A stretch of 20,506 nucleotides of DNA, from IMG/VR virus record IMGVR_UViG_3300025770_000102, positions 1-20,506 of that record, one strand, 5' to 3'. Shown here piece by piece: positions 6,282 through 17,615 of this stretch. Position 1 is the stretch's first letter. The number at the start of each line of letters is the position of its first letter. Under the pieces are notes generated by a model. That model ran no database searches and was not told where the DNA came from. It worked only from the letters and a program-made list of their open reading frames with translations. Source of the stretch: a virus. Made by a program: the position numbers and the translations under genes.

Positions 6282-9200
6282 ATGACACAAACTAAATCAC
6301 ATATCCCCTTGTTGTTTGACTCAAACCCATACTACGACGATTTCTCTGTCGATAAGGGGTTCCTTCGTCATCTATTCAAGCCTGGATATGGCATTCAAGC
6401 AAGAGAACTCACCCAGATTCAATCCATCCTCCAGAACCAAGTCGAGAGATTTGGTAGTCATATATTCGAGAATGGTTCAGTAGTTGTTGGTGGTGAAGTA
6501 GTAGAAGGAAAAATCCATTGGATTCGTGTTTCAGCAGCCGGTAAAGACGCAGCCGGTGTTGAGGGAGATCCAATTGACAACCTTGATATGATGGTAGGAC
6601 AAGATATTCAGTCGGGATCGATGAAGGGTCGGGTGGTCCATGTTCTTGCGGGACGCGACGGCACGCAACTGGATAAAGGTCAAGTTGTGTTCTTCACCCC
6701 ATCAACAGTTGGATCTTTTTCACCCAACGATGTTGTCTCTACTGTAGGAACCGATCATATCGGTGAGTCTTTTAGGATTGCAGATGGTACAGTAACTGAT
6801 GCAGTAGGAACGGATGCTATTTTAGTAACAGTGAACGAAGGATTCTTCTTTGTTGACGGGTTCTTCGTCCACACACCAAAGCAAAGTATTGTCCCCTTCA
6901 ATTCAACAGGAACTGCTGAAGATAGTAACGAACTACGAGTATTTTCTGATCCCACATCATCGGTTGGTTTTACTGTTTCTCGCATGATCGTGAACTCTTC
7001 GGAAGATGAAACTTTACGAGATCCCGCAAGTGGATTTTATAACTTCAATGCTCCCGGATCAGATCGCTACAAAATTGATCTTGCACTAACCTCCAAGGAA
7101 TTTACGGGTTCGTTTGGGGATGCCTCGACACTAACCTTCTCTGGGGACAACTTCGTCGAATTGATTCGTGTCGTCGATGGAAATACCACCAAGAAGATTG
7201 AACATGCCGACTATTCGGCTCTTGACGATTCGTTGGCTCGTCGGACATTTGATGAGTCAGGACACTACACAATTGGTAGTCCTAAACTCCGAGTCACCTC
7301 GCACGGAACTGCTTTCACTCCCTCCGACAACACCAACAAGTTTGCCGTGGGTATCGATCCTCACAAATCATATGTTAGTGGTTATGAACTAGAGACTCAG
7401 AGTCCGACCTTCTTGTCTGTAAACAAACCACGAACCACCCAAACTCATGCTATCGAAAATCTTGATCTTACACACGGAAATTACTTTGTCATAAACGGTT
7501 CGGGCAGCACGTTTCAAGAATACGGACCCGCATACAACGTAACATCTGGCGCACTGCACTACCTCCGTACTAGCACCGGGATATCCTTTGGATCTTGTAA
7601 TGTCGTTTGCGTCCGAGGGGTTGGTACTACGGGGGCTGGTGCTGAGTATCGAGCATATATTAGTGGTCTGAAAATTGACAACAACAATTACAACATTGGC
7701 AATACCGATAATATAGTGTATTTCGATGACTCAACAGGAGCGATGACTGCTGGCAGTCTAGATGTTGAAAGTATTGATGGATCAGTCGGTCCTAAGTTGT
7801 CTGGACACAAATCTCTCCTCTTTCCTACATCGGGAAACAACACCATCACCGAAAAGGGACTTGCTGGAGAAGGCCTTCCGGCCGGAACCAGACTTGCCGT
7901 TCAGTTGGTGCATATCGAAAAGGATGTGACCGGATCTAGTGTTACGATCACCCCAACAACCCCAAGAGAGTGGGATGATGATCCAGATAGTGGAAACGCG
8001 GTAACTAACTTCGAGATTGCAAATGCTCCTGTCATAGCCATTGATAGTAATGGAGAGATTGTAAATCAAAACGTAAGCGACCCGTCCCTTGACGGTACAT
8101 CAATGACTATCACTTTTGATGGTTCCGTGACTCCTAGTCATCAATCGATAACATTTTTATATTCAGCATATCTGGATTATGACAATGTGCCGGGCGGTGA
8201 GTTCTCCAACTTCTACAGAACTCTAGATCTGAAGACTGATGGACAGGACGATAACATAGTATCTTCCGAAATTCAAGAAGTAAATGGTATTGAATACGTT
8301 GTGTTTACTCTCACGAAGAGTGATGTTACATCCGTTACGAGCGTTGCGGACCAAATGAGTGATGGGGATGTAGCAACATCTGACGTTATTTTGGATAATG
8401 GACAACGATCTTATGCCTATACACTGGGTCGAGTATTTGTTCCCAAATCTAAACTAAGCGACACTGGAGATCAGGTAACATACAAAGTCGCCGTGAGTTT
8501 TTCCTATAACAAACATAGCGGAATTGGTCCTGTAACCATTGACAGTTATAATATACCATACGACGCAATTCCATCATTCACCGACAGAGACTCTGGTAAG
8601 TTTTATCGCCTACAAAAGTACATCGACTTCAGACCAATTCAATACAAGCCAACTGTTGATGGGTATCAAGTTCGGCAACACTCATTTGGGTTGCCTCTCG
8701 ATAATCCCAACGAAACCTCACAGATCAGTTATGAGCGATATCTTCCAAGAACCGATTCTGTGGTTGTGGGAGAAGACCGCACTCTTGGTGTAGTATCCGG
8801 GATCCCCGGTCTTCTAGGAGAACCCCCCCAAACATCGATGGATGATATGGTCCTATACCATCTCGATATTGAACCTTATGTGTTTGATCTTACCCGAGAT
8901 GTGCATGTACGGCATGTTGATAATCGTCGATTTACAATGAACCAAATTGGCAAGATGCAAAACGAGAATGATCTGCGATATCGCAGCGACATCTACGGAA
9001 AACTTGTGTCTAACGCAATCGCTAGATCGACCGAAGAACCAATTATGATGCATGGAGAAGAGAACCCCTACAATGTGTTCCCAGTTACAGAAGGCATCAT
9101 GGTAGACGATTTCACTGGACATGCATTTTCTGATGTTGCTAATCTAGACCACAACTGCTCGATGGATAGCAGGCTTGGTGGAGTACGACCTCCGTTCGAT

Positions 9201-11324
9201 GCTTCGGCAATCGAATTTGATGTTTCTCCGGGAACCAACCTCAACGAATCGGACGATGGTATCGTGACTTACGGGTACACACATACTCGAATTGTAGGAC
9301 AGACCGCCGGAACAGAAACAACTCATCCCAACCCATACGGAGAAGTTGACTATCTTGGTTTCGTAAAACTGAAACCAGCATCCGACTTTTACTTCGACGA
9401 AACGGTCGCTCCTTATGTGCTTGTCAATACTTTTGGTGAGAACAACGCATATCAAATTGGTCTGTCTTCCCATCAGGTAGGTAGATCATATGGATATGGA
9501 ACCCTCGATAAAGAATATCTTTATCATTGGTTAGGAACCAAGGACAATTCGTTCCAGTCGAGAGAGGTAGACCCATCAAGCAGAGAGTATGTCTCTCCTG
9601 TACCAAATCAAACCAATCGATATCCAGACCGAATTATGCGGACAGTAGGGAACAAGTCCATCGATGAAAGTGTTGTTCCTTACATGCGGGGAGTTGGAAT
9701 CACCTTCTCCGCAGAAGGTCTTCTTGGAGGATCGAAAGTCTATGCATTCTTCGATAATGCATCTGTAGGAAGTGCGGATGGATATATTGTAGGTTCTACT
9801 GGATCTGCAATAGGTCATATCGAAATCTCAGATGGTGCCTTCCTTACGGGAGAGAAGTCATTCCGACTCTCGGATAGATCAGACAACGACCTCGATCTTG
9901 CAAACACAATGGCTGAAACTAAATTCTATTCTCAGGGTCTATACGGAGACTCAGATAATACATCTCGGTCCTATAGAGAATTAGAAACTAGAAAGAGATC
10001 TGTCAATTCACCTGATATTATTGACTACTCTTATGACAGAACACAAGACAACAACTACACACCGATCTATGGTGGTATTGAACCTCTTGCACAAGAGATT
10101 ATTGTCGATTCCTCTAGATATCCATATGGGATTTATCTATCAAAGATTGATCTGTTCTTTCTTGGGGTGGATGGAAGTCATCCAATAACAATACAACTAC
10201 GTCCAATGGAAGCAGGATACCCTCATCCAAACAAGGTAGTTCCGCTGTCAACTGTTACCGTACAACCAGAAAGCGTACAACAAGATAACGGTCCCAACGA
10301 CTCCATGGAAACCACATTCGAGTTCTCTTCGCCCGTGTATCTACAATCAGGAAGATATGCTGTATGTGTTATCACGAATGGTTCAGAATACGAACTTTTC
10401 ACCTCGACCGTAGGAGAAATTGAATTGGATTCTACTGGAGGGCCCTCCGATGATAACATATTCAGCAAAGATGCTGGAATTGGAATCAAGTTGGGAAGTT
10501 TGTTCAATCCAATCAACAATGGCTCTAGAGTAGAGAATATGAATCGGGTGTTTATGATGAACATTTATAGGTGCAATTTTGATGCGTCTTCTGCGGGTAC
10601 CATCAACATGAGTCCTATTGCACCAGCAGGTTCGTATAAGGCACACTCCGTTCTCATCACAGGAAATCAGCAACCATACGGATCAGGGTTTATGCAACCC
10701 GTAGCGTCATATGGCAATATCGGAACTGAGTTGAATAGTGAGAGCATTCTTCCTACAGAACAAGACATCCTCATAGATCAAGTATCAAAAATCACATTCC
10801 CGTCCTCGGGCAACAACAGCCTATCTCCGGTGATTGATCTAGATCGAGTCGGACTAATCGCTGTACACGATAAAGCATCTACCTTCGCAAATTCTGATGT
10901 CCTTGGAGAACTACGAGGAACAGCCGGTTCTGCCAGTAACATTGCTAGGTACGTCAGTAAGAGAATGACCATCCCAGAGCGAATGGCTAATGACATGCTA
11001 GTCTGCCTCAAAGCATACGGAAAAGTAAAGGTCTACGCAAAGACCTCCAGTGGTGCAGCAGATTTTGATGGTATTCAGTGGGTAGAACTGTTCCCGACAG
11101 TCAGGGCTGATGGTGCTGACTCCTATCCAGCAACAACAAGATCCACCACAGCGGGTGTTCTTCAAGATTATTATTTCCGACCAAATACGCCCACTGCGTT
11201 AGGTAACTTCAATACATACAGTATCAAGATCGTCCTATTCAAAGAAGACGGTAACACCTCTAGCCGAACAACAATGTCATATGCACAAGATCTAAGAGCA
11301 ATTCCTCTTCAAAGCAATGTCTAA
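6282..11324 (+). CDS. Large DUF4815-type virion structural protein (baseplate/tail fibre)
   Basis: This 1680-residue protein matches the large DUF4815-containing structural proteins of marine T4-like phages. The N-terminus has the diagnostic run FKPGYGIQARELTQIQSIL (about 32-50) followed by FGSHIFENGSVV, which would be the attachment end. A mid block, FTDRDSGKFYRLQKYIDFRP (about 764-783), then YLPRTDSVVVGED and NRRFTMNQIGKM (about 885-896), continues the family pattern. Near residues 1158-1195 is a small module with GAFLTGEKSFRLSD. From about 1265 to 1430 a jelly-roll-like domain starts with PLAQEIIVD and contains ITIQLRPMEAGYP and SPVYLQSGRYAVCV, as in many phage fibre proteins. The C-terminus ends in TTMSYAQDLRAIPL, also family-typical. 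AGAGGA at 6267-6272 precedes the ATG by 9 bases. Role inferred: a fibre or baseplate-periphery protein built after the wedge. It is not a recognisable T4 gp9 or gp10. Confidence 0.78.
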   Translation: MTQTKSHIPLLFDSNPYYDDFSVDKGFLRHLFKPGYGIQARELTQIQSILQNQVERFGSHIFENGSVVVGGEVVEGKIHWIRVSAAGKDAAGVEGDPIDNLDMMVGQDIQSGSMKGRVVHVLAGRDGTQLDKGQVVFFTPSTVGSFSPNDVVSTVGTDHIGESFRIADGTVTDAVGTDAILVTVNEGFFFVDGFFVHTPKQSIVPFNSTGTAEDSNELRVFSDPTSSVGFTVSRMIVNSSEDETLRDPASGFYNFNAPGSDRYKIDLALTSKEFTGSFGDASTLTFSGDNFVELIRVVDGNTTKKIEHADYSALDDSLARRTFDESGHYTIGSPKLRVTSHGTAFTPSDNTNKFAVGIDPHKSYVSGYELETQSPTFLSVNKPRTTQTHAIENLDLTHGNYFVINGSGSTFQEYGPAYNVTSGALHYLRTSTGISFGSCNVVCVRGVGTTGAGAEYRAYISGLKIDNNNYNIGNTDNIVYFDDSTGAMTAGSLDVESIDGSVGPKLSGHKSLLFPTSGNNTITEKGLAGEGLPAGTRLAVQLVHIEKDVTGSSVTITPTTPREWDDDPDSGNAVTNFEIANAPVIAIDSNGEIVNQNVSDPSLDGTSMTITFDGSVTPSHQSITFLYSAYLDYDNVPGGEFSNFYRTLDLKTDGQDDNIVSSEIQEVNGIEYVVFTLTKSDVTSVTSVADQMSDGDVATSDVILDNGQRSYAYTLGRVFVPKSKLSDTGDQVTYKVAVSFSYNKHSGIGPVTIDSYNIPYDAIPSFTDRDSGKFYRLQKYIDFRPIQYKPTVDGYQVRQHSFGLPLDNPNETSQISYERYLPRTDSVVVGEDRTLGVVSGIPGLLGEPPQTSMDDMVLYHLDIEPYVFDLTRDVHVRHVDNRRFTMNQIGKMQNENDLRYRSDIYGKLVSNAIARSTEEPIMMHGEENPYNVFPVTEGIMVDDFTGHAFSDVANLDHNCSMDSRLGGVRPPFDASAIEFDVSPGTNLNESDDGIVTYGYTHTRIVGQTAGTETTHPNPYGEVDYLGFVKLKPASDFYFDETVAPYVLVNTFGENNAYQIGLSSHQVGRSYGYGTLDKEYLYHWLGTKDNSFQSREVDPSSREYVSPVPNQTNRYPDRIMRTVGNKSIDESVVPYMRGVGITFSAEGLLGGSKVYAFFDNASVGSADGYIVGSTGSAIGHIEISDGAFLTGEKSFRLSDRSDNDLDLANTMAETKFYSQGLYGDSDNTSRSYRELETRKRSVNSPDIIDYSYDRTQDNNYTPIYGGIEPLAQEIIVDSSRYPYGIYLSKIDLFFLGVDGSHPITIQLRPMEAGYPHPNKVVPLSTVTVQPESVQQDNGPNDSMETTFEFSSPVYLQSGRYAVCVITNGSEYELFTSTVGEIELDSTGGPSDDNIFSKDAGIGIKLGSLFNPINNGSRVENMNRVFMMNIYRCNFDASSAGTINMSPIAPAGSYKAHSVLITGNQQPYGSGFMQPVASYGNIGTELNSESILPTEQDILIDQVSKITFPSSGNNSLSPVIDLDRVGLIAVHDKASTFANSDVLGELRGTAGSASNIARYVSKRMTIPERMANDMLVCLKAYGKVKVYAKTSSGAADFDGIQWVELFPTVRADGADSYPATTRSTTAGVLQDYYFRPNTPTALGNFNTYSIKIVLFKEDGNTSSRTTMSYAQDLRAIPLQSNV

Positions 11325-11327
11325 ATA
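11320..11327 (+). promoter_or_regulatory. Possible variant late promoter at the DUF4815/fibre gene junction
   Basis: TCTAAATA overlaps the stop codon of the DUF4815 gene and lies 24 bases before the next ATG. It differs from the T4 late box at the second base. If used, transcription would begin a few bases downstream and leave a short leader holding the strong AAGGAG site. The position is attractive but the sequence match is imperfect. Confidence 0.25.
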
Positions 11328-11340
11328 GGTTAGATCCCCC

Positions 11341-11346
11341 AAGGAG
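11341..11346 (+). promoter_or_regulatory. Strong Shine-Dalgarno site for the 1397-residue gene
   Basis: AAGGAG ends 5 bases before the ATG at 11352. It is among the best ribosome binding sites in the window and sits in one of the longest intergenic gaps (27 bases). It fixes the start of the downstream gene and suggests high, independent translation, as expected of an abundant virion protein. Confidence 0.7.
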
Positions 11347-11351
11347 CGTTT

Positions 11352-14300
11352 ATGTCTGTAACACCACCATACTATGATCCGATCAGTAATCTGAATCTGG
11401 CGGACACCTTCTATACTTGGTATCGAAGGACTAATGACATTGTGCAGAAGTTGAACCCGTTAGAGTTGTATGGTCTTTCTGCCAGCACTCAGCCTGGATA
11501 TGATGGTCTTACTATCGATATCAATACAGCAACAGGAATTGCTCAACTTGGTTATGCGCTTCCGTATACCATTGGGAACGATCATGTTTTCACTGGCGGA
11601 CTCACGTTCGCGGGCGACATCGTTGCTATATCCGGTACATCCTTCATGGGTGGTAATGTTCAGTTCGAACCGAACGACACTAATGGGTTCGTTACATTCA
11701 ACAGTGGTGTTGTCCAGTTTGAAACCGGAGTGAACAAGGTTGACTTCTTCACAGATATCAACATTGATGATTCTGATATCAAGGTTACAGATAGTGATAT
11801 TGACATTATTCGTACGCCGGTCGAAATCGACCTCGCCGGGAATGTCGGGGCGCACAAGGTACTCATTACTTCACTCGGCGGCCAGATCACTACCCTCCCG
11901 ATCTTTGGATGTAAAGTTCCAACAGCATTCTATCATGCAGTCCAGTTTGAGGAAAGACCCAATGGTGAAGGCAGTTCTCCAATTACCTTTAGCAAGGATA
12001 CAACAATCGATGCTGCAAGTCCAACAGTAAATTTCCATGCTCAAACCACGAGTGAAAGACAATTCAAAATCTCTGGCAACAATGTTACGTTTAGCGGAAG
12101 TGAGGCATCGTGGGAATTCCAAAACGAAAAAGGTGTGAAGTTCAATCCCCTTTCTGCCATTAGTATTGAGTCTGGTGCTACCTTCGAGGAGGATAGCAAA
12201 CTCGTTCTGAAGGGAATGGTGTATGATTCTGATGGCTCAATGCCCGGAGCAGGGCACGTTCTGATCACAGATGCTGCCGGAAGACTAAATTATGGCGACA
12301 AGCAATTTATCTGGAACACAAATAAACCCGGATTAGGTACCGCGCACTTCGCAATGAACTATATGTTGGGAAATATGTCTCATGTAGCCCGGGCTGCAAC
12401 AGGCCTCCCTTTCGCAGTCCCCCGGTACTATGTATTCTCCAGAAGAACACTTTTGCCCGAGGACTGGGCCAGCAGTCAGTTCCATGGAGCATCTCATGGT
12501 GGAATCACATTCCACAAGGGAATCTATTCGATTATCCGCGCACATGGCGCGAGCGGGGATGATAATATCGAACCCATTGCTTCTTATGAAAATGAAAGAT
12601 ATCGGGGATTTGGTGGTACGATGAGTCCCACATTCGCAAAGATCCTTGCTTGTGGTGGGTACAAGACATTTGGAACTCCGTTTCCTGAAATGGGAATAAC
12701 CTTCTGTGGTTTGACAGGATGTACAGATAATAGAATGAAAAACAAGTACTGGTATGCTGACGTTAATATCTACGAAGGCCACCCAGATCCAACTCTAGAA
12801 GACTTGGATTCAACTGTCGGTGGGGAACATTACACATGGAAGCGGGACACCGTCCCAAAGACATACTGGTCCTCGAATATGAGAGCGAATCCAAACGACT
12901 ACCAAGACAATTCTTCTACCGGCTGGTTAGGAGTGACCGCCGGGACTTACCTACAACAAGGAATTCCTGTGGTTCCAGACGGTTTGCGCCAACTCGCCAC
13001 GTGGGCAGAAATGTCATCATCTATGAATCTTGGTAGTGGCCACCGAAACACAAATTACACTTCACATTCACCAGAATTATTTTATGAAGATCCAGTGGAT
13101 TTGATTGGATCGGAGCAGATTGGACAGTTCGGGGGAGTCATTCCTGATATAGAACTTCCGATATCACATTCCCCATATATGTTCAACGTCAAACTCCGAT
13201 ATAATGTCCCGGCAGGAATGAGATTGATAATTGCTTTCCAAATAGACCCGACATTTACCAAAAACTTTCCAAAAAACCAATTTGATAATTATCCCTTCCA
13301 TCGTGATGATAGTGCGGTGGGTGAAACAAAATCGCCTGATTGGGATGAAGATGACATCTCAGATGACGGGGAGTTTCGACAACAAATATTTACCCCATCA
13401 ACAAAAGTGAGTTCAGAATCTTTTGGTGGGGACGATTCCCACGAAATTCGAAGATTCCTTCGCATAAAATCAAGTGATTTTGCGAAGAAGGTGTGGCAAT
13501 TCGCGTTCAAGTATGTCACCAGTCCTTACGTCGAGAATGACGAAGTTACTGGTGTATCTACTGGTGTATCGTGGTCACAAAGACAAGATTGGCTAGCCAC
13601 TGAGACCAATGGAGGCCATGCAGTCTCAGTATGGGCCTATACTGGTTCTAATGGCACATTCACAAAGTCTGATTTTGAACCCAACGCCCTATATCCCATT
13701 CCATATCTGACAGATCCACCGGGTGAGAATCCTACCTCGCAAATAACCGCAAAAAAGGGAATGTCGATAGTCGCTGAAGGTTTGCAATATGGTGGTGCGT
13801 TGCTGGCTAAAGATTTCCCTATGAATGATGGTGGGGGTGAGGACCAAACATTCTTGAACTTATGGAATTCTTCGGCCGAGCGAATCGCACCGATTGGGGG
13901 TAAGGACACGCGCGCCTTGGGCATGACTTACTGGAATCGGGCAATGGCTCAACTTGCTAGCACTACAAGTTTTGATTTTGGTTTGTATGGTGTTACTGGT
14001 TGTGGACGGGACGAGAATGGTAAATTGTATGGGGCAGATGAAACACAACATGAAGACGAAGCGAATTGGACGGATCTGCGGGCGGGCATCAACACAAGTC
14101 GATTATACCACGATGGTCCTTATTCTGGACCCAGACCCGAGAGCGAGTATGCATCATCCGTCACCAACATCGGTCCTGATATGGGGTATTACGACAGGGT
14201 AATTCGTTATCAACTAAGGAATACTAAGCGTTCGGCAACGGACGGAAACTTGAGTGATACGTCTCTACTATTTGATGAACTAGAAACAACCCTACGGCTA

Positions 14301-15545
14301 CATAACGTGCGTGACAAAAACGCAATGGGCCACAATCATGAAGTAGTATTTGGTCGTGGACATTTTGCTAATGTTACTTGGGATCGACACAAACTGAGAC
14401 GAGATGCCAAGGGTAATCACAATGGCGCTGAGCCAAGATTAACAACATCATTCATCAATCCCCTCACCGGAGGTGGAACAGCAACCGGAATATATCAAAA
14501 AGATGCGAATGATAATGATGTAGAAATCATTCCATGGGAACGAGTTTCGTGGTGGTCAGATAATCAACCAACCACACCATTTTCTTTCCCCAACTCAAAG
14601 GCTGCGTTTGATTATTTTGGTGAACTGCCTTCTGTCACCGGAGACATATACGGAACTCATGAAATGGGTGGTGTTGGAAGTGCAACCGGAAAGAGAAAGA
14701 ACGTCGAACTCCGCGCATTCTTCAATGACAGCAACTCATCTATGTTCTCTCCTTTCAGGCCTAAATCTGGCGGTGAAGGCTGGACACGATGGACGAGCAA
14801 TGGGAGTCCTGTGTCGAAGGCGTCTGGGTATGGGGAAGTCCCAACTTATGAAAGAACAACCACTTGGGGGAGTGGCTATGTCTACTTCACGGATGATCGG
14901 CGAGATCAATTCATAGATCAATTTGACACAGCAACAGCAACCAATACAGTTAACTACGCTACCGAATTTATATTGACCGACCATTACGGAAATCAATATA
15001 CGGTTGATAATTTCCACCGGGGAACAATAGACAGTGTAAATGAACGGAACGAAACTCGTGGTAGATATTCTGAGGTAGATCTAGACTTTACTGATATTGA
15101 ACCTGACGAAGTCACGTACACGGGCGATGACGACGGTACTCGCCTGCTCGTTCGTCAGCCACAGGAAGGAGAAATTCTATTACAGATCCCATCTCCTCTC
15201 GGTGGAATTTTGACTAACTCGGGTGAATGCCCACATCCACTATATCTCAAATCTAAGATTATCGCTATGGACATCAACGATGGATGGAAAAGAACACCCA
15301 AACAAATCTGGGATAGTACATTGACCAAGAATTCGTCTATAATTCAAGCGAGTAGTGTTGCAGTACATGAGATCGATGACACATTTGTGCCGGGGGGCGA
15401 ATTGGCGGACTGCGAGACAAGATTGGGAAACACAGTGGTGGACACCTCCGGAAATGGAATCACAGTAGATGACCACAAAATTTATGCTGCCGATGGTGAG
15501 TACGTCATTCGATTTTTAGGAACAAACATTACCATCCAGAGGTAG
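11352..15545 (+). CDS. Putative tail fibre / host-contact virion protein, 1397 residues
   Basis: The N-terminus, NLADTFYTWYRRTNDIVQKL then NPLELYG (about 15-41), resembles the opening of structural fibre proteins in marine T4-like phages. Residues 75-190 and 205-290 look like short beta strands in tandem (FTGGLTFAG, NVQFEPND, FVTFNSGVVQFE, then DSDIKVTDSDIDI), suggesting a beta-helical or beta-prism shaft. At about 300-314 GHVLITDAAGRLNYG resembles the small 'VLTSDANG' link motif found before C-terminal domains of phage fibres. The remaining roughly 1080 residues are rich in Trp, Tyr, Gly, Asn and Asp and match nothing I know; no S74 chaperone signature is visible at the end. Placed between the DUF4815 protein and the neck genes, it occupies the slot of T4 short fibres and fibritin. 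Receptor binding is inferred from position, size and composition only. Confidence 0.6.
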   Translation: MSVTPPYYDPISNLNLADTFYTWYRRTNDIVQKLNPLELYGLSASTQPGYDGLTIDINTATGIAQLGYALPYTIGNDHVFTGGLTFAGDIVAISGTSFMGGNVQFEPNDTNGFVTFNSGVVQFETGVNKVDFFTDINIDDSDIKVTDSDIDIIRTPVEIDLAGNVGAHKVLITSLGGQITTLPIFGCKVPTAFYHAVQFEERPNGEGSSPITFSKDTTIDAASPTVNFHAQTTSERQFKISGNNVTFSGSEASWEFQNEKGVKFNPLSAISIESGATFEEDSKLVLKGMVYDSDGSMPGAGHVLITDAAGRLNYGDKQFIWNTNKPGLGTAHFAMNYMLGNMSHVARAATGLPFAVPRYYVFSRRTLLPEDWASSQFHGASHGGITFHKGIYSIIRAHGASGDDNIEPIASYENERYRGFGGTMSPTFAKILACGGYKTFGTPFPEMGITFCGLTGCTDNRMKNKYWYADVNIYEGHPDPTLEDLDSTVGGEHYTWKRDTVPKTYWSSNMRANPNDYQDNSSTGWLGVTAGTYLQQGIPVVPDGLRQLATWAEMSSSMNLGSGHRNTNYTSHSPELFYEDPVDLIGSEQIGQFGGVIPDIELPISHSPYMFNVKLRYNVPAGMRLIIAFQIDPTFTKNFPKNQFDNYPFHRDDSAVGETKSPDWDEDDISDDGEFRQQIFTPSTKVSSESFGGDDSHEIRRFLRIKSSDFAKKVWQFAFKYVTSPYVENDEVTGVSTGVSWSQRQDWLATETNGGHAVSVWAYTGSNGTFTKSDFEPNALYPIPYLTDPPGENPTSQITAKKGMSIVAEGLQYGGALLAKDFPMNDGGGEDQTFLNLWNSSAERIAPIGGKDTRALGMTYWNRAMAQLASTTSFDFGLYGVTGCGRDENGKLYGADETQHEDEANWTDLRAGINTSRLYHDGPYSGPRPESEYASSVTNIGPDMGYYDRVIRYQLRNTKRSATDGNLSDTSLLFDELETTLRLHNVRDKNAMGHNHEVVFGRGHFANVTWDRHKLRRDAKGNHNGAEPRLTTSFINPLTGGGTATGIYQKDANDNDVEIIPWERVSWWSDNQPTTPFSFPNSKAAFDYFGELPSVTGDIYGTHEMGGVGSATGKRKNVELRAFFNDSNSSMFSPFRPKSGGEGWTRWTSNGSPVSKASGYGEVPTYERTTTWGSGYVYFTDDRRDQFIDQFDTATATNTVNYATEFILTDHYGNQYTVDNFHRGTIDSVNERNETRGRYSEVDLDFTDIEPDEVTYTGDDDGTRLLVRQPQEGEILLQIPSPLGGILTNSGECPHPLYLKSKIIAMDINDGWKRTPKQIWDSTLTKNSSIIQASSVAVHEIDDTFVPGGELADCETRLGNTVVDTSGNGITVDDHKIYAADGEYVIRFLGTNITIQR

Positions 15546-15560
15546 AAAGCAAGATCATCA

Positions 15561-16859
15561 ATGGCAACCACATTTAACTCAATCTATGAAATCGCTCTGA
15601 ACGGGGAAGGTGTTCCTTCTACAACAAGTTCACCACTAAGTAAGTTGTCTGGAAACATCGGGGCAACGAAGTTGTCTATTAGCGACGTATTACTCCCAGC
15701 AGCGTCATACACAGGATCCATAACGCTACAGAGAAATCTTTCTATGGGATATTTGATGTCGTTCACCGATGCATATCTGGGACTTTACCAAATTGACAGT
15801 GTGGCAGATACTCTCCTAGATTTCCCTTCTTCAACTTCTACCTTAGATATTGATCTTCCGGGAGACTCGGTTCTTGAGCAAGATGCACGACGTTATAGCA
15901 ATTCTATTACAGAATTTATTCGTGTCGAGGGACAGCGGTTCGCTGATAGCAATCAAGATATCGAAAATTATGATAAACGCAAACTACGAACATATAACAA
16001 TTTCTCAAAAACAGCCACCAACGGTGGAATGCGTAATCTAGGAATCTCATTCGACCCATCTGTGATGTATGTTATGGGAATTACGAATGAGGGATATACC
16101 CATGGAGGATCCTCTTCTGGGTTCATGCTTGGAGAAACCTTTGGTAATGCAACAGGACCAAGTGGATTGGTCGTTGGTATAATGGACTTCACTGCTATAA
16201 CCGCAGGTACGTCGATTGGTGGACTTTCAGGATCTATAACTGGTGGTGTTTATGCTCTCTTCATGTCTGAAGTAGGACCAACATCAGGTGCTGGATACAC
16301 GCAATTTATTGTTGGTTCGACTGGTGGAGGATCCTCGTTCGGGGGGACAGGATCGATAAGTTGGATATATGATATCAATAGTCTCTATGTCCAAAAAGCA
16401 AAGAACTCTATCACCAAAACAATCAATACTATTATTCCCAATGTCCCTGTGGGGATGACTGTCGGTAGTATTACAGCAGGACATCAAATTCGGGTGTATG
16501 ATCAAAACGAAGATCATATCGAAAAAGTCATCAAGGGAATCGAGGAGGGTCAGGAAAGATATGATCTGGTCCGAGGATTCTCCGCTGGATATACATCAGG
16601 ATATCAATTCTCACCCAAGGCATTCGCGTCTTACGAATACAGCAACACACTTTTGCTTGCTCCAACCACAGCAGTAGGTGACTCTGCTTCTGAAGCACAG
16701 GAATTGGTCTTCTATATGACAACAGATTTGGCAGGAAAGAGAACCACATTTGAAACTCACGTTAGGTCACTAATGGTAGCCGGGTCGGAAATCGACACTC
16801 TCTACAAACTCTCCGAGTGGGGAATTCCAGAAACATTCAAACGATTATACGAGCAATAG
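15561..16859 (+). CDS. Unknown virion protein in the wac/fibritin position
   Basis: I do not recognise this 432-residue protein. Residues 1-170 are mixed, with an N-terminal MATTFNSIYEIALNGEG and a charged stretch (ENYDKRKLRTYNNF, about 134-147). Residues 180-275 are very rich in Gly, Ser and Thr with motifs such as GGSSSG, GNATGPSG and STGGGSSFGG, a flexible or beta-prism-like region. The last 150 residues include a polar segment (QNEDHIEKVIKGIEEGQERY) and end in SEWGIPETFKRLYEQ. The ATG at 15561 follows the previous stop by 15 bases with only a distant AGAGG. It ends six bases before gp13, where T4 carries wac, but no long fibritin-like coiled coil is visible. A structural role is inferred from context; no biochemical function can be assigned. 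Confidence 0.55.
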   Translation: MATTFNSIYEIALNGEGVPSTTSSPLSKLSGNIGATKLSISDVLLPAASYTGSITLQRNLSMGYLMSFTDAYLGLYQIDSVADTLLDFPSSTSTLDIDLPGDSVLEQDARRYSNSITEFIRVEGQRFADSNQDIENYDKRKLRTYNNFSKTATNGGMRNLGISFDPSVMYVMGITNEGYTHGGSSSGFMLGETFGNATGPSGLVVGIMDFTAITAGTSIGGLSGSITGGVYALFMSEVGPTSGAGYTQFIVGSTGGGSSFGGTGSISWIYDINSLYVQKAKNSITKTINTIIPNVPVGMTVGSITAGHQIRVYDQNEDHIEKVIKGIEEGQERYDLVRGFSAGYTSGYQFSPKAFASYEYSNTLLLAPTTAVGDSASEAQELVFYMTTDLAGKRTTFETHVRSLMVAGSEIDTLYKLSEWGIPETFKRLYEQ

Positions 16860-16865
16860 ACTAAT

Positions 16866-17615
16866 ATGTCAGTACCCGCATCTAGACAGGCACTCAAAGA
16901 ATACTCACTCCGGCAACTGGGCGCACCAGTCATCGAAGTGAATGTTGATGATATCCAAATAGAAGATGCTGTCGATGATGCCCTACAGTTTTTCGCAGAG
17001 TACCATTTCGATGGTGTCCAGAAAACCTTCTTGAAGCATGTTATCACCGCAGACGATGTGACTAACGAATACATTGACATGGATGCAATCGATAGTAGGG
17101 TAGTAAGCATTGTTCGGATGTTTGAAATCCAAACCCACTCGATGAATATGTTCGATGTCTCATATCAACTAGCACTCAATGACTTCTTCGGCACATTCAC
17201 TCCGGGGTCGATGACCAACTACACGATCACCAAGCAAAATCTTGCGATGATTAGTCAAATTCTAGATCCCGCAAAGAACTTCCGGTTCAGTCGAGTGACC
17301 AACAAACTCTACATTGATATGGACTGGGCAAACGATGTCGAAGTAGGAAACTATATTGTCATCGAGGCATACACTGCTCTCGATCCTCAGACATATCCCG
17401 AGATATACAGCGACCGACTTCTCAAGAAATACGTCACTGCTCTTATCAAGAAGCAGTGGGGAATGAACCTCATCAAGTTTGAGGGAGTCCAACTTCCCGG
17501 TGGAGTCGCATTCAATGGCTCCCGAATCTTAGACGAAGCGAAGGAAGAAATAGACAAGATCGAAGAACAAGTAGGGGATCTGTACGAACTACCCCCAGAC
17601 TTTATGGTAGGTTGA
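16866..17615 (+). CDS. 13: Neck protein gp13
   Basis: This 249-residue protein matches gp13 of T4-like phages, which with gp14 forms the neck that closes the DNA-filled head and gives the tail its docking site. The N-terminus has the familiar pattern SRQALKEYSLRQLGAPVIEV (about 5-24), then DDALQFFAEYHFDGVQKTF (about 38-56). The second half contains a LYIDMDW strand and the IVIEAYTALDP segment, followed by LLKKYVTALIKKQWGMNLIK and a VQLPGGVAFNG loop, all typical of cyanophage-type gp13. It is shorter than T4 gp13 (309). It is followed after three bases by gp14. No good Shine-Dalgarno is visible, so coupling to the upstream gene seems likely. Confidence 0.88.
   Translation: MSVPASRQALKEYSLRQLGAPVIEVNVDDIQIEDAVDDALQFFAEYHFDGVQKTFLKHVITADDVTNEYIDMDAIDSRVVSIVRMFEIQTHSMNMFDVSYQLALNDFFGTFTPGSMTNYTITKQNLAMISQILDPAKNFRFSRVTNKLYIDMDWANDVEVGNYIVIEAYTALDPQTYPEIYSDRLLKKYVTALIKKQWGMNLIKFEGVQLPGGVAFNGSRILDEAKEEIDKIEEQVGDLYELPPDFMVG

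Follow-up and report, generated by a model that had tools for sequence, protein, structure and literature searches.

The last 1,083 residues of a tail fibre encoded in a 20,506-base virus record from IMG/VR (IMGVR_UViG_3300025770_000102, the whole of which is termed here the window) probably form the distal receptor-binding module of a T4-like, marine-type fibre, a module that is exchanged between phages together with the gene directly downstream, here called u432. This reading is supported by the position of the fibre gene, which has a DUF4815/VrlC-like baseplate gene on one side and the neck genes on the other, by an N-terminal anchor that is common to other fibres, and by replacement of the C-terminus. 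The IMG/VR loci and contigs with which the window was compared are designated by L-numbers; all are metagenome assemblies, not isolates. The fibre gene is divided as follows.

11352..15545, plus strand: tail-fibre gene encoding 1,397 amino acids, an open reading frame (ORF) flanked by the DUF4815/VrlC-like gene upstream and the neck genes downstream
11352..11642, plus strand: conserved N-terminal anchor, residues 1-97 (ADTFYTWY...KLNPLELY), defined by alignment and present, complete or partial, on 22 IMG/VR contigs
11643..12245, plus strand: shaft, residues 98-298, fast-evolving (45% identity to L159, versus 75% for the anchor)
12246..12296, plus strand: link GAGHVLITDAAGRLNYG, residues 299-315, with counterparts in L159, L006 and L007/L162
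12294..15542, plus strand: orphan C-terminal region, residues 315-1397 (1,083 amino acids), the proposed receptor-binding module, with whole-length relatives in L006 and L159
12294..13511, plus strand: first part of that region, residues 315-720, the best conserved (HGASHGGITFH, ACGGYKTFG, GLTGC; 48-51% identity)
13452..13961, plus strand: gap-rich and least conserved middle, residues 701-870 (31-34% identity)
13962..15542, plus strand: second part, residues 871-1397 (YGVTGCGRD, TGDIYGTH, C-terminal ITIQR; 42-47% identity)

The C-terminal region aligns over its whole length with ORFs of L006 and L159, so that it is a real protein and not a chance open frame. L006 was fetched by way of its gp13 and L159 by way of its anchor, and both were then recognised by blastp as carrying the region. 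Identity to the window over the region is 46.3% (459/991) for L159 and 43.4% (438/1010) for L006, and L159 holds a full-length homologue of the fibre (43% identity). All three members keep the motifs HGxxHGGITFH, ACGGYKTFG, GLTGC, YGVTGCGRD and TGDIYGTH and the final ITIQR. The counterpart of the link reads VLITDPxGxLxYG in L159 and L006; in a second, type-B fibre (L007/L162) it is VLTSDGAGHVRW, at residue 273.

The original prediction described about 1,080 unrecognised residues at the fibre C-terminus with no S74 chaperone in view, and both statements were borne out by the searches. No Pfam family matched the window protein up to E = 1, or the C-terminal region of any of the three members up to E = 10. 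The window fibre protein had no PHROG match up to E = 0.1 and none in NCBIfam; the sole PHROG row for its C-terminal region was at E = 0.34, to a family of 49 amino acids. The whole proteins of the relatives gave weak rows only, lying in the shaft (DUF6799 at E = 0.085 in L006, TIGR00156 at E = 0.019 in L159). Among PDB sequences there was no credible match to the C-terminal region; rows for 8gme gp32 (E = 0.015 over 57 positions) and qacR (E = 0.95) were taken as chance. Searches by tblastn found nothing for the region in 50,697 phage records (E up to 0.01; for the region of L006, E up to 1) or in 72,556 plasmids (E up to 1). Short-motif patterns run against bacterial and archaeal genomes returned 43 stretches, none of them related, and a DNA pattern for GDIYGTHxMGG returned none, although distant relatives could escape such short motifs.

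The family also appears to be rare. A scan with the window protein alone recovered only an anchor relative, L001. Four scans with alignments, all including L006 and three including L159, added no contigs beyond these two (L181, L183 and L185 are the contig of L159); each consisted of two to six short peptide patterns, which can miss distant relatives. An unfiltered hidden Markov model (HMM) of the three sequences matched only L006 and L159 among ORFs of at least 100 amino acids from 180 loci, the next best being at E = 0.16. Searched against 26 virus records that contain fetched loci, a list that does not include the record of L006, the family alignment matched only the record of L159. To judge from these comparisons, the C-terminal region is a rare orphan family without recognised relatives.

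Two kinships suggested by its motifs were tried and rejected. GLTGC and YGVTGC looked like repeats, but a comparison of residues 315-860 with 860-1397 by hhalign gave a probability of 0.4% for an internal duplication. The type-B fibre (L162 7998-11432, equal to L007 5433-8867) contains three copies of a unit of about 155 amino acids (IPxDATHhII...), to which L001 adds two more; the unit has no Pfam match and PHROG rows only at E = 0.15 or weaker. Its IPxDATHhII resembles VPAGMRLII, but the best hhalign E value for a relationship to the C-terminal region was 0.26.

A DNA comparison covered the window and eleven loci; in several of them near-identical neck genes are joined to a different fibre cassette. 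Two features define the exchange.

16860, no strand: recombination junction, located 6 bases ahead of the start codon of gp13; in L162, L005 and L003 the DNA identity, taken in steps of 30 bases, climbs from 30% to 87% and on to 97-100%
16866..17615, plus strand: gp13-like neck protein (head-tail adaptor), matching phrog_211, annotated as a neck protein in relatives and 98-100% identical in L002-L005 and L162

The gp13-like protein opens a near-identical block shared with close relatives. Downstream of 16860, identity to the window is 96.0% in L003 (3,647 bases), 99.1% in L005 (3,475 bases) and 96.0% in L162 (678 bases, to the contig end); upstream of it, the same three loci show 10-53% per 30 bases. 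L002 changes near 16770 and is 94.9% identical over 2,517 bases from 16686. L006, which has the same fibre type as the window, shows 81% DNA identity from 16033, within u432, onward. L009 and L082 are located entirely downstream of the junction, L159 and L160 end upstream of it, and L008 is too diverged (67-72%) to show one. Only 13 bases of the L004 contig precede its match, which begins right at 16860, as though assembly had stopped where the exchange took place. The fibre and partner proteins of L005 and L162 are identical over their shared part and were counted as one event, so that about three exchange events are seen (L005/L162, L003 and L002).

At the protein level, the fibre end of L005/L162 is unrelated to that of the window, and the gp13 of L162 is 98% identical. 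In L003 gp13 is 99% identical and the last 191 amino acids of the fibre-position ORF are unrelated to the window's; comparison of this end with the window region gave an HMM match only on another frame (E = 0.42) and a best blastx match on the other strand (E = 0.039). Positions 1-576 of L003 are the final part of a third ORF at the fibre position, whose closing residues, FSWTATKV, recall FNWTATKTS of L007; the resemblance of the two ends is confined to 12 residues (58%, E = 0.92). L002 retains 94 bases before its partner gene, too few to judge the fibre. Within L006, gp13, gp14 and gp15 are 92%, 90% and 89% identical to the window, and the C-terminal region 43%. In L162, L003 and L006, then, the C-terminal part is replaced or fast-evolving between close relatives.

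Misjoining of metagenome contigs at the conserved gp13 start could imitate such a pattern: the sequences come from IMG/VR assemblies and not from isolates, and the near-identical stretch of L162 is only 678 bases long, at a contig end. We regard such an artefact as highly improbable. The same junction occurs in L005 and L003 with the long matching stretches given above, and another occurs in L002; the contigs concerned bear different IMG dataset numbers, which alone do not establish that the samples are independent; and L006, of the same fibre type, shows the strong divergence of the region within one contig.

The anchor is far more widely distributed than the region that follows it. The complete anchor or a part of it (at the least, residues 11-54) occurs on 22 IMG/VR contigs, several of them near-duplicates (for example L165/L166, L168/L180, L169/L170, L174/L179 and L175/L176), and the orphan region is found on one of the 22, L159. 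L160 and L172 end before the region could appear, and the last 81 residues of L160 are 90% identical to the start of L006. The other 19 gave no HMM match to the orphan region at E < 0.1; two of these, L161 and L177, are truncated at their 3' ends. Uncut fibre ORFs on the anchor contigs range from 384 to 1,355 amino acids. When seven of the ORFs were scanned, those of L175 and L178, in which the anchor part comprises residues 11-62 or 11-55, matched a PHROG short tail fibre beyond the anchor (about 42 residues, E about 1e-7). The fibres of L175, L176 and L178 are 1,322-1,331 amino acids long (that of L177 is cut at 1,067), all with the short anchor motif, and the middle of the L175 fibre resembles ORFs of several other T4-like contigs. 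The window fibre thus has an N-terminal region in common with other fibres, as is characteristic of fibres in host recognition clusters, and this region presumably attaches the fibre to the baseplate.

What had been taken for a 300-residue N-terminal shaft is in fact this conserved anchor plus a variable shaft. The suggestion that the C-terminal region varies faster than the N-terminal 300 residues is accordingly correct relative to the anchor (46% versus 75% identity in L159) and incorrect relative to residues 98-298 (45%).

Several observations weigh against a receptor-binding module exchanged as a unit. The shaft is as diverged as the C-terminal region in L159, at 45% versus 46%. In L162 the entire baseplate block is diverged (gp25 63%, gp6 59%, the wedges 50% and 49%, DUF4815 43%), so that the exchange involves more than the fibre end, in a block extending as far as gp25 or beyond; pairwise comparison fails to recognise only the fibre C-terminus and the partner gene of L162. 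The C-terminal region is carried by just three sequences, and none of the searches of Pfam, PHROGs, NCBIfam and PDB sequences linked it to a known receptor-binding domain. Monomer prediction by AlphaFold gave a mean predicted local distance difference test score (pLDDT) of 28.4 for the 1,083 residues, modelled with the three sequences, with 1,081 below 50, and of 26.4 for residues 315-720, with all 406 below 50.

The original prediction proposed a receptor-binding or a glycan-active domain. Receptor binding is the likely function of the C-terminal region, given its position, the shared anchor and the replacement of the C-terminus; for enzymatic activity no positive evidence emerged. A glycan-degrading tailspike, in which the region would cleave surface polysaccharide as a depolymerase, esterase or lyase, an activity that Ackermannviridae tailspikes encoded beside VriC can have, is in our view unlikely. 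The gene has the same kind of neighbour as those tailspikes, several His and Asp residues are invariant among the three members, and the region is enriched in Trp (2.2%, versus 0.5% both in residues 98-314 and in the other window proteins pooled) and in His (2.6% versus 1.7-1.8% in the same two sets). However, no glycosidase, lyase or esterase family was found in Pfam, NCBIfam or PDB sequences, no Asp box was found by the pattern tried, and three sequences are too few to pick out a catalytic set. Of the composition initially described as rich in Trp, Tyr, Asn, Asp and Gly, the enrichment in Trp stands; Tyr is enriched relative to the shaft (4.5% versus 1.4%) but not relative to other window proteins (4.7%), and Asn, Asp and Gly hardly differ (5.8, 7.7 and 10.1% versus 5.4, 7.5 and 8.7%).

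The region might instead belong to a structural protein that binds no receptor, either a long appendage of the baseplate or neck or a connector for another receptor-binding protein such as u432. In favour of this alternative, the neck fibre gene of T4 (wac) stands just before gene 13, and u432, which changes along with the fibre type, might itself be the tip or serve as an adaptor. Unrelated ends at the same neck proteins would not be expected, however, of a part that must fit the virion, and the widely shared part of the fibre is the anchor and not the end. We therefore think a purely structural role quite improbable. If the C-terminal region is a receptor-binding domain, it is conceivable, though we put this forward only tentatively, that it has a new fold, with two conserved halves around a hypervariable middle, in a compact cassette with one dedicated partner gene.

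The partner gene is the second component of the exchanged segment.

15561..16859, plus strand: partner gene u432, 432 amino acids, 57-61% identical in L159 (cut at the 3' end) and L006, which have the same fibre type

The partner position is occupied in L162/L005 by an ORF of 368 amino acids and in L003 by a related ORF of 504, both very distant from u432; u432 travels with the fibre type. No tblastn match to u432 was found in the phage records, nor any match in Pfam. The two partner families are nonetheless distantly related by profile comparison (P = 8.4e-8; the best of ten column-shuffled controls gave 0.0018 and the reversed profile 0.11), so that the partner appears to be an old companion of the fibre with divergent alleles. 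A distant relationship was also seen between the u432 family and the partner ORFs, of 335-380 amino acids or more, that other T4-like contigs carry in this position. The product of u432 may be a second adhesin, a chaperone or a neck appendage.

All genes of the window lie on the plus strand, in the order gp25, gp6, two wedge genes, DUF4815, fibre, u432, gp13, gp14, gp15, gp16 and the start of gp17. Family matches in Pfam or PHROGs back gp25, gp6, both wedges, gp14 and gp15; the names gp13, gp16 and gp17 follow the T4 gene order, gp16 and gp17 standing outside the family scan.

6282..11324, plus strand: DUF4815/VrlC-like baseplate protein, 1,680 amino acids (PF16075, E = 1.7e-36; phrog_358, E = 9.9e-206)

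This protein resembles VrlC of Pelagibacter phage Mosig and proteins named VriC or VrlC in Serratia and Klebsiella phages, and also matches a PDB entry named DUF4815/ORF65. Literature searches on DUF4815 with tail fiber, on the phage 812 tripod and on 9EUF each returned nothing. Among the best 15 of 2,215 matches, gp13 shows 43-50% identity to proteins of T4-like phages, most of them phages of Synechococcus or Pelagibacter. It is these relatives of gp13 and DUF4815/VrlC that lead us to call the T4-like myovirus marine-type. By megablast the window DNA had no match in the phage records. Between DUF4815 and gp13, the host-recognition stretch (11325-16865) is compact, with the fibre gene and u432 filling 5.5 kb.

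Taken as a mechanism, residues 1-97 would attach the fibre to the periphery of the baseplate, probably to the DUF4815/VrlC-like protein encoded just upstream, and would be followed by a thin shaft and the VLITDxxG link. The 1,083-residue end of what may be a trimeric fibre would make contact with the host at its surface, where an envelope glycan or an outer-membrane component is the most likely target. Recombination between close phages would exchange the module and its downstream gene, one of the junctions lying at the start of gp13; a phage could thereby change its receptor, and possibly its host range, and retain its neck and packaging genes. Phages are known to alter which bacteria they recognise by carrying a different protein end at such a place. 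The determinants of host choice in marine T4-like phages are still largely unread, since fibre ends commonly have no relatives in databases. The window and its relatives expose a natural swap, in which neck and packaging genes that are nearly identical adjoin, at a precise junction, different fibre cassettes; it supplies defined modules for tests of host specificity and names a partner gene to be tested along with the fibre.

Among known systems, the short tail fibre gene of T4, gene 12, occupies a comparable place between baseplate and neck genes. Unlike gp12, to which no sequence similarity was found, the window protein has, in place of the HxH metal-binding motifs of T4 gp12 and gp37, a single HNH at residue 994, and L006 and L159 lack an HxH at the corresponding position.

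The tail spikes of Ackermannviridae, encoded downstream of vriC, have conserved N-terminal domains and swappable C-terminal receptor modules (PMC8432352). Like that of TSP1-4, the cluster described here follows a vriC (DUF4815-related) gene, with a conserved N-terminus and a swappable C-terminus; unlike TSP1-4, to which no sequence similarity was found, its fibre end gives no evidence of a beta-helix or an enzyme, and no beta-helix or glycosidase sequence family has a credible Pfam, PHROG or PDB sequence match in the C-terminal region. In Alteromonas phages a fibre and its chaperone are shared between distantly related phages (PMC10579305). There, as here, a fibre and a downstream gene move together; unlike those modules, u432 has no Pfam match and hence no sign of a DUF4376 chaperone. 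A 'tail fiber/VrlC' protein with lectin-like matches has also been listed (PMC11406892).

The closest parallel is the host recognition cluster of pelagimyophages and cyanomyophages, a hypervariable segment between VrlC and gp14 in which tail fibres lie downstream of VrlC in most genomes (PMC7029224). By that definition the window fibre, encoded between VrlC/DUF4815 and the neck genes, has the position of a fibre in such a cluster. The published clusters average 44.6 kb in pelagimyophages and 34.2 kb in cyanomyophages from VrlC to gp14, unlike the 5.5 kb found here, which is measured from DUF4815 to gp13. The most similar pair of complete genomes in that study showed gradual divergence rather than complete replacement, in contrast to the abrupt junctions among relatives of the window. 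As in those clusters, the fibre directly follows VrlC and precedes the neck genes, and the content varies between relatives. The window thus carries an orphan, swappable fibre end in an already known kind of cassette.

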